NCBI GenBank assembly: GCA_963920705.1
Contig: OY987238.1
Coordinates: 14,564,183-14,628,182, forward strand
Length of the DNA stretch: 64,000 nucleotides
Source of the DNA: Odiellus spinosus
Lineage: Eukaryota; Arthropoda; Arachnida; Opiliones; Phalangiidae
Reading direction: 5' to 3'
Of this stretch, positions 7,945 through 10,900 are shown in pieces (the stretch's first letter is position 1; every line of letters begins with the position of its first letter). The position numbers were made by a program, and so were the translations under genes. The notes under the pieces were generated by a model. The model saw only the letters and a list, made by a program, of their open reading frames with translations. It made no database searches and had not been told where the DNA came from.

Positions 7945-10900
7945 CTAATAGTAAGTTTCTTGTTCTACCCAACCACCGGGATTTCGACGTAGAATCAATC
8001 GTCGAATTTCGTCATAAACAAAGATCAAAATTGAGAATGGTAAAGCTGGGAACCACCATCCGAGCCTTTTGTTGTTTTGGGTTTTATTTTAAAAAGATAA
8101 ATTAATCATACGATCTATGAAATATTGATAGCGTAATACGGCAAAACATTGTTTCAACGAAATACTGGCAGGAGGTAAATGAATTCAGTTTCCTTAAATT
8201 TTAGTTATAGTCGCTAAGCCTTGGCTTCGCGGATGACAATGATTGGTTAAAATCACTTGTTATAACGAAAAAGGGTAAGATTTAGGGCAAATTTTGGTAT
8301 AATGAGTGTTGCGAGCTAAAACTAGGCCTAAATAGAATTAAATAGGATGCAAATTGCTAAGCCTTGGTCTTCGCAGATGACAGAATTGGTCAATATCATT
8401 CGTTATGACGAAAATAGGCAAAATATATTTATATTCTGGTATAAAACCAGTGTTTGTCAACTAAAACAAGGCCTAAACATAATTATATAAGGAAATAGGA
8501 GGTAAATCCCTAAGCCTTGGCTTTGCAGATGTATAACCAGCGTTCGTCTGCTAAAATTAGGCCTAAATAAAACAATAGTACAAAATAGGATGCAAATGGT
8601 TATAAGTAATGTTTCAGTGCAACCAATTTTCGTTATAACAATTAATTTTAAATAAGAATAATGTATTTTTGGATAATATTTTGAATTCAAATTTCGTTAA
8701 AGTAGTTTTACTGTATATAATATGTAAAAACTAGTTCTCTTAGATATTTTAAAATAATTATTTATCATAAGTTATATTCTATAATAAGGTAAAGAACTAA
8801 AAAAAAAGGTTTCTTACTTGAGTGGGTACATACGAAGACCCTTGTCCATCCCCGGACAGTACGATAAGAATGCGGCTAATGCAGTTTCAAATACTAAGCC
8901 AAAGTTGAGAATATGGTTCCTTGGAAACAAAACAAAATCAATTAGAACATTAAAATTGAAAACAAACGATAAAAACTTACTTCATTCCTTGTTGAACGAC
9001 TGAGTTTCGACGAGTTTTACAAATAATCAAGTCAGCCCATTGAACAATAACGATAGACACAAAGAAAGCGGTATGGCAAGTATATTCCAGAACTTTACGG
9101 TTTTGATAGGTCTGAAACAAGATTCGCACGCATACTGTTAGTTAAGCCCTAATTTCAAATAAAGGCAGACGACCGAAACTAATAGCTAAGAAGTGAAAGT
9201 GCCTCGGTTAAGCTGTTTAACTCTAGCGGCTCTGCTGCCAATTCATTTAGACACAGAGCGTAGCGCCAAACGGCAAAACCAGGTACTAAAACTACGTAGC
9301 TATAGGTCGTCTGCTACACCAATGGTTGAAAAAACATTGCGTATCTTACCCATTCCTGATTGTAAGAATCTTTCAAGTCGTTGATGGCTTTTGAATCCCA
9401 GTATTTTCGCAATCCTAAGAGTGTGCTTGGCCAGAAACCATTTTCAGCCATAATAACGAAATAAGCGAAGAATCCGGCAGCCGCTTGCATCATACCAATT
9501 TGACCGTACGCAATAGAGATCAACCTAAAATTTTAAACGTTTTTGGAACTTCCACGGATAATAGTTAAGGTAAACCGAGGTGCAATTCAACCATTTATTG
9601 AAGAGATTTAATTAACTTTTAAAAATCGATATTCAAATTAAAATTATCAAATACCATTTACACGTTCACCGACTTCGCTTAAAAATAAAATAAAAGATAA
9701 ACGTTACCTTTCATTGACCAATTTATCTTTTTTAGGGTCACGAGGACGTCGTTTCATAATGTCACTTTCAGCTGTCTCATAAGCGAGAGAAATAGCGGGT
9801 ACCTGTGGGATTTATTAACGTGCTAAAAACAATTCTCAAACCAAAAATAATATAACTAGAACGTAAGATTGATGTTCAATAAATAAATTTGTGTTAAATT
9901 AGCAACAAAAACTTATGAGATAAAGACTAAACATTAAAGAGTACTTAACGAGAACAAAGAGCAACAAATAGGGACATGCACAAGCGATAGAATAACGGAG
10001 ATACATATAATTATTTGACGTACCTCAAACAGAAAAAAAAACAGGGGTAAAATACTTAAATTATAATAAAACAAGGCAGATACTTGCGTTAAAGTTAAAA
10101 GAAAGGTTAGGAGTATTGATAATTAGGTTTAATTAGTTGTAATTATAGTCAGAAACTCAAGAGTTTAAGATTGGGATTCTGACTAAAATTATTTTTGTCT
10201 CTGGCATAAATGGTTCGCACCGTTATATTTTTGAGTGTTTAAGTTTTTCTTCCGAATTTTACCTCTCATTTACGAGTTTATCATGTTTGGGATCTCTCGG
10301 TCGTCTTTTCATAATATCAGATTCAGCGTGTTCGTAAGCCAGAGAAATAGCAGGGACCTAGTAGTCGGATTAATAGTCGGAAGCGGGGAAAGATAGCACC
10401 GCAAATATGGTTACATTTTAGAATTAAGCAATTAGCAGTTGAAATTTAATTGGTATAGTTATTATTATGGAGATGGTAAAGCCTTTGAGATGAAAGGGTA
10501 ACCAACACAGTTTAGTAATTAGTGAATGAATTAGCGAGGAAATTGGCAGTGTATTAGTAAGCAATGACGTATGTTAGACATGATTTGTTGCGAAATAAAG
10601 CCTGGTATTAAGCCTTAGTATTCGAGACAGACAAGTAACAATACAGTTTCACGTAAAAAGTTAAAGTTTGCCTGATTACTTATAGTTTCCAACAGTTTTA
10701 AAAAACCTACTATTTTTTATAAGCTATAAGGGTTCACCTTTGACTGGGTGGAGTTAGGATTGATAAAAAGTTGCTGCAATACGTCGTTGAATTTACGAGG
10801 AAGCAGACTTTGATGGAGCACTAAGGCCTAATGTTTACTTTACCACACTATTTCTATCCCAAAATGTAGGAATGCTCGATACAAAGTGGCCTGCGCGTCT

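Follow-up and report, generated by a model that had tools for sequence, protein, structure and literature searches.

A tandem pair of near-identical exons in the Na,K-ATPase alpha gene of Odiellus spinosus, probably used one per mRNA

Results

Two 95-nucleotide exons lie side by side in the Odiellus spinosus Atpalpha gene

The window analysed here is a 64,000-nucleotide stretch of the Odiellus spinosus genome (contig OY987238.1), and its minus strand carries a Na,K-ATPase alpha (Atpalpha) gene at positions 7945-14680. Joining the exons across GT-AG introns gave an open translation without an internal stop that ends in ...WVEQETYY, and the spliced model matched P-type ATPase Pfam families as well as the sequences of solved Na,K-ATPase structures. 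PDB chain 8k1l (alpha2KK), of possible arthropod (Artemia) origin, was among these matches. The exon that holds the start codon of the long form was not found. The features around the variable exons, as read from the sequence, are as follows.

7945..14680, minus strand: Atpalpha gene as modelled, each mRNA comprising 14 constant exons and one member of the pair, matching P-type ATPase Pfam families
10951..11105, minus strand: exon preceding the pair, ending in CIDLGTDL, with donor GTAAGT at 10950
10263..10357, minus strand: H exon, the variable copy that comes first in the transcript, His-bearing, 31 codons plus AG
9803..10262, minus strand: 460-nucleotide intron separating the H and T exons
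9708..9802, minus strand: T exon, the variable copy that comes second in the transcript, Thr/Lys-bearing, 31 codons plus AG
9350..9524, minus strand: exon following the pair, which completes the Arg codon (AG/G)

The original prediction of two 95-nucleotide exons, 460 nucleotides apart and with the same splice phases, was thus recovered at these coordinates. Each copy has AG directly before it and GT directly after it, is entered in phase 0 and is left after 31 codons plus 2 nucleotides, AG, with which an arginine codon begins. The exon upstream of the pair, which encodes the M6 ion-site aspartates, was misread in one respect: the donor had been placed on the 11105 side, which is where the exon has its acceptor, while the donor actually lies at 10951/10950. 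A 60-nucleotide direct repeat (2.3 copies, 95% matches) was also seen inside an Atpalpha intron at 12821-12960.

Outside the gene, minisatellite arrays occupy 18284-18796 (a 23-nucleotide unit in 22 copies), 27385-28051 (33- and 115-nucleotide units), 34226-34782, 45840-46300, 51238-51871 (a 23-nucleotide unit in 28 copies) and 52541-53727, and the long open frames in the 18-kb and 27-kb arrays are repeats, not evident genes. Downstream of Atpalpha, a 458-codon open frame at 1257-2630 on the minus strand had no Pfam match at E 0.01 and is possibly a protein gene.

Both exons are old and under selection

The H and T exons are adjacent, equal in length and phase, and identical at 71 of 95 nucleotides, as tandem-duplicated exons are. 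The 24 differing nucleotides change 16 codons silently, the exact figure behind an original estimate of about 16, and change the residue in 2 codons, giving His in H and Thr in T at exon position 10, and His in H and Lys in T at exon position 25, the two sites that had been named. By the Nei-Gojobori method, pS between the copies was 0.75 (saturated) and pN was 0.12. When 24 random changes were simulated under neutrality, not one of 200,000 replicates carried two or fewer residue changes, the minimum seen being 7. Comparison of the two sequences thus shows that H and T are old and that each is under purifying selection on the protein, because silent sites are saturated and the simulations were never so protein-conservative. 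The ungapped repeat between them stops 4 nucleotides beyond one splice site and 2 nucleotides beyond the other, and the intron flanks have diverged with the exception of one short patch. An assembly duplicate is ruled out by the saturated silent sites, the neutral simulation and the end of the repeat just outside the exon, and the first two of these also rule out a decaying pseudo-exon.

A third copy of the exon was absent from the 64,000-nucleotide window in a tblastn search to E 100, in which H and T were the only good matches and the next (E 0.69) lay on the opposite strand and contained a stop. On the genome scale, no second conventional alpha gene was found among the best candidates scored in the 443-Mb assembly. 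There, again among the best candidates, a 62-residue M6-M7 query matched three exons of Atpalpha alone, while a P-domain query gave five further matches with 49-65% identity. When an M5-M10 query was compared with the 3-kb loci around these other P-domain matches, nothing aligned except, poorly, one locus (L005), although the M5-M10 part of those genes may fall outside the 3-kb loci searched.

The reading frame favours use of one copy at a time

Given that each copy contributes 31 codons plus 2 nucleotides, double inclusion and double skipping had been expected to shift the frame, and both do so: with both exons joined the modelled frame meets a stop at codon 876, and with neither joined it does so at codon 855. 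In both forms three exon junctions lie more than 50 nucleotides downstream of the premature stop, as in non-productive mRNAs. The whole pump is therefore coded by one-exon mRNAs only. In the mechanism that we propose, the spliceosome would pick one copy, by cell type or under regulation, and the out-of-frame products would be cleared by nonsense-mediated decay, so that reading frame and decay together would leave one-exon mRNAs alone. For a cluster of two 95-nucleotide exons, frame and decay could suffice for exclusivity. Steric or U2/U12 exclusion is a poor fit, with a 460-nucleotide intron, GT-AG boundaries and donors that look U2-like by eye.

Taken together with published arrays in the same gene, this exon anatomy makes mutually exclusive use of H and T, as originally predicted, a well supported reading, although one-at-a-time use rests here on sequence. 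It is plausible that the choice between them would be tissue-specific.

Introns around the pair show no docking or selector pairing clearly above chance

The original prediction had proposed a search of the introns for complementary docking and selector sequences. No such pairing clearly above chance was observed in the introns flanking or between H and T, and the search left one repeated patch as a weak lead. Shuffled sequences equalled the observed whole-intron duplexes around the pair in 58, 21 and 9 of 100 cases, and the introns folded on themselves in an ordinary way (z of 0.42, −0.04 and −0.31). Local complementarity between introns, in six comparisons, was reached by 25, 242, 268, 151, 196 and 188 of 500 shuffles, and the best hairpin was reached by 19 of 200 shuffles in the middle intron and by 156 of 200 in the downstream one. 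Two inverted repeats had raw energies of −17.2 kcal/mol (9589-9619 with 10185-10215) and −11.6 kcal/mol (10240-10262, at the H donor, with 9893-9915). The 25 nucleotides upstream of the H and T acceptors are identical at 11 positions, which was equalled by 28 of 500 shuffles, and the pyrimidine counts of both acceptors fall within the range of the 16 acceptors listed. The motif TTAAT lies 11 nucleotides before both variable exons (9814-9818 and 10369-10373, minus strand) and could be a shared branch-point-like site. No Rfam family matched within 7000-16500 at gathering scores.

The short patch that escaped divergence in the flanks occurs downstream of each copy.

10164..10192, minus strand: intronic patch, 71-99 nucleotides downstream of the H exon, overlapping an arm of a local hairpin at 10140-10191; weak lead
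9619..9647, minus strand: matching intronic patch, 61-89 nucleotides downstream of the T exon; weak lead

The two patches are identical at 21 of 29 nucleotides with an offset of −10. This level of identity was found in 1 of the 105 pairs of donors that the gene offers (the pair itself), in 22 of 3,000 composition-matched random pairs, in 5 and 7 of 1,727 window segments compared with either side, and in none of 200 shuffles. Since the patch was noticed post hoc, it is kept as a weak lead only. If competing intronic RNA pairings enforced exclusivity, the patches would be a duplicated stem arm and 10140-10160 the docking site. The rarity of such similarity would suit that reading, as would the H-side arm (10171-10191), which pairs with 10140-10160 at −15.1 kcal/mol in a geometry like that of the stem-arm duplication model for mutually exclusive clusters, as the available text of PMC6071210 presents it. 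However, the T-side patch reaches merely −7.9 kcal/mol with the same site, a value matched by 40% of 1,207 window segments, and finds a better partner within its own intron (−10.1 kcal/mol, near 9650-9689). Shuffles also equalled the middle-intron hairpin, the whole-intron pairing and the local pairing at the rates given above, and we consider enforcement by competing pairings unlikely.

The pair probably corresponds in position to an exon array of other arthropods

Similar exons have been described in this gene. The accessible portion of PMC3793950 reports exons 11a and 11b in the NAK1 gene of the barnacle Balanus improvisus, proposes their mutually exclusive use, notes that cyprid cDNA showed 11b alone, and counts between two and four copies of the exon in Daphnia pulex, Anopheles, Ixodes and Drosophila, citing Palladino 2003 for the Drosophila Atpalpha array. 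It gives the barnacle gene 15 exons of 81-912 nucleotides, with an 81-nucleotide exon 2 and the array at exon 11.

The Odiellus pair likewise sits inside a Na,K-ATPase alpha gene. By exon bookkeeping, splitting a 27-residue part off the first located exon, fusing the 60-nucleotide exon to its neighbour and fusing the 468- and 438-nucleotide exons yields 15 exons with the pair as number 11. With these three assumed splits and fusions the bookkeeping also gives the smallest barnacle exon (81 nucleotides) and nearly the largest (906 versus 912 nucleotides). Four exons follow the array here, and four follow it in the barnacle if its 15 exons count 11a/11b once; if they are counted twice, only three come after it and the correspondence breaks down. 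The published text and this bookkeeping together suggest that the H/T pair is most likely orthologous to the "exon 11" array of the barnacle and other arthropods.

That Drosophila Atpalpha uses mutually exclusive exons, as stated in the original prediction, is borne out by the entry Atp-alpha (4) among the mutually exclusive clusters in the part of PMC6071210 available; that they occupy the same place is probable and follows from exon bookkeeping only. The four-copy cluster is probably at the same exon as the H/T pair. The position of the pair, which fits the barnacle array by bookkeeping, counts against an origin within this lineage independent of the other arthropod arrays, as do the saturation of silent sites (pS 0.75) and the divergence of the intron flanks outside one short patch. 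Such an origin would accord with two copies here and four in Drosophila, and with copies that differ by two residues only, orthology being argued from bookkeeping and not from aligned sequence; we regard it as quite improbable. As a further lead only, a Drosophila-like sequence may have His at position 10.

The switched residues lie on either side of L6/7 positions mutated in human ATP1A2

The pair encodes the cytoplasmic end of M6 together with the L6/7 loop, the location originally assigned to it. In aligned Na,K-ATPase rows, exon position 10 is Gln in alpha1 and Ala in alpha3, and position 25 is Thr. The first switched site therefore differs also between alpha1 and alpha3, and the residues of these rows, Gln or Ala at the first site and Thr at the second, mark neither H nor T as the ancestral copy; a direction of change "to histidine", as first proposed, was not borne out. 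In human alpha2 numbering, by an offset from alpha1 and alpha3 and with an alpha2 length taken as 1020, the two switched sites fall at 823 and 838. The alpha2 residues E825, M829 and R834 then correspond to exon positions 12, 16 and 21, where H and T both carry the same letter as alpha2.

These three residues are named, with human ATP1A2 mutations, in the available part of a hemiplegic migraine paper (PMC3865589), which also says that L6/7 has been proposed to be a cytoplasmic entry port for cations and to transmit the signal of cation binding, and an M5 arginine forms hydrogen bonds with the L6/7 loop according to the text available of PMC13113771. As the two switched sites lie to either side of L6/7 positions hit by ATP1A2 mutations, cation activation or turnover would be slightly different in the H and T isoforms, and a small change of this kind is a reasonable inference. 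The presence of His at both switched sites in one copy, in a loop proposed as entry port and signal transmitter (PMC3865589, in part), could also be taken to mean that the His copy makes a pH-tuned pump. By contrast, position 10 is already Gln in alpha1 and Ala in alpha3, and because these rows differ there a change at this site need not concern pH; we find the pH reading very doubtful.

Discussion

The H/T pair is very probably an old tandem duplicate of the exon for the M6 inner end and L6/7, of which one copy is used per mRNA to make slightly different isoforms, and which is likely orthologous to the arthropod "exon 11" array. One could go further and suppose that one alpha gene with a two-residue exon swap would make two pumps of different cation or proton sensitivity, with splicing doing the job of the vertebrate alpha gene copies and a duplicated stem arm in the introns governing the choice; to this combined proposal we give very little credence. 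Little or no use of one copy, which would leave the gene effectively single-isoform, agrees with the barnacle cyprid cDNA showing exon 11b only (PMC3793950, in part) but is very unlikely, as H and T both keep frame, splice sites and protein despite saturated silent sites.

In the CC-licensed PMC literature, as far as the texts were available, we found no study of the effect of choosing one or the other of these exons. The accessible portions of PMC11765297, PMC6025963 and PMC8503543 mention Atpalpha and say nothing of this pair, and that of PMC11193536 has nothing on the exon pair. PMC6733596, in the part available, masks "two alternatively spliced exons" and leaves unspecified which ones, while the corresponding part of PMC3793950 calls for the functional significance of the two exons to be elucidated.

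As regards known systems, the docking-site/selector clusters of Dscam1, 14-3-3 zeta and Mhc (described in the portion of PMC6071210 at hand) resemble the pair in that one of several tandem duplicated exons is chosen, but differ from it in their docking and selector pairing, none of which stood clearly above chance here. In Drosophila melanogaster the likeness extends to the gene itself, Atpalpha, and to a mutually exclusive array of similar exons, which has four copies there and two here. The arrays of Balanus improvisus (11a/11b), Daphnia pulex, Anopheles and Ixodes consist, as here, of tandem near-identical copies of an internal exon. For the barnacle, where 11b alone appeared in cDNA, the position fits by exon bookkeeping. 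The finding thus adds one species to a described arthropod pattern and is notable for its two copies with two residue differences: the pair represents a very simple form of a known, functionally unexplained arthropod splice choice, and its two point differences allow a direct test in an expressed pump.
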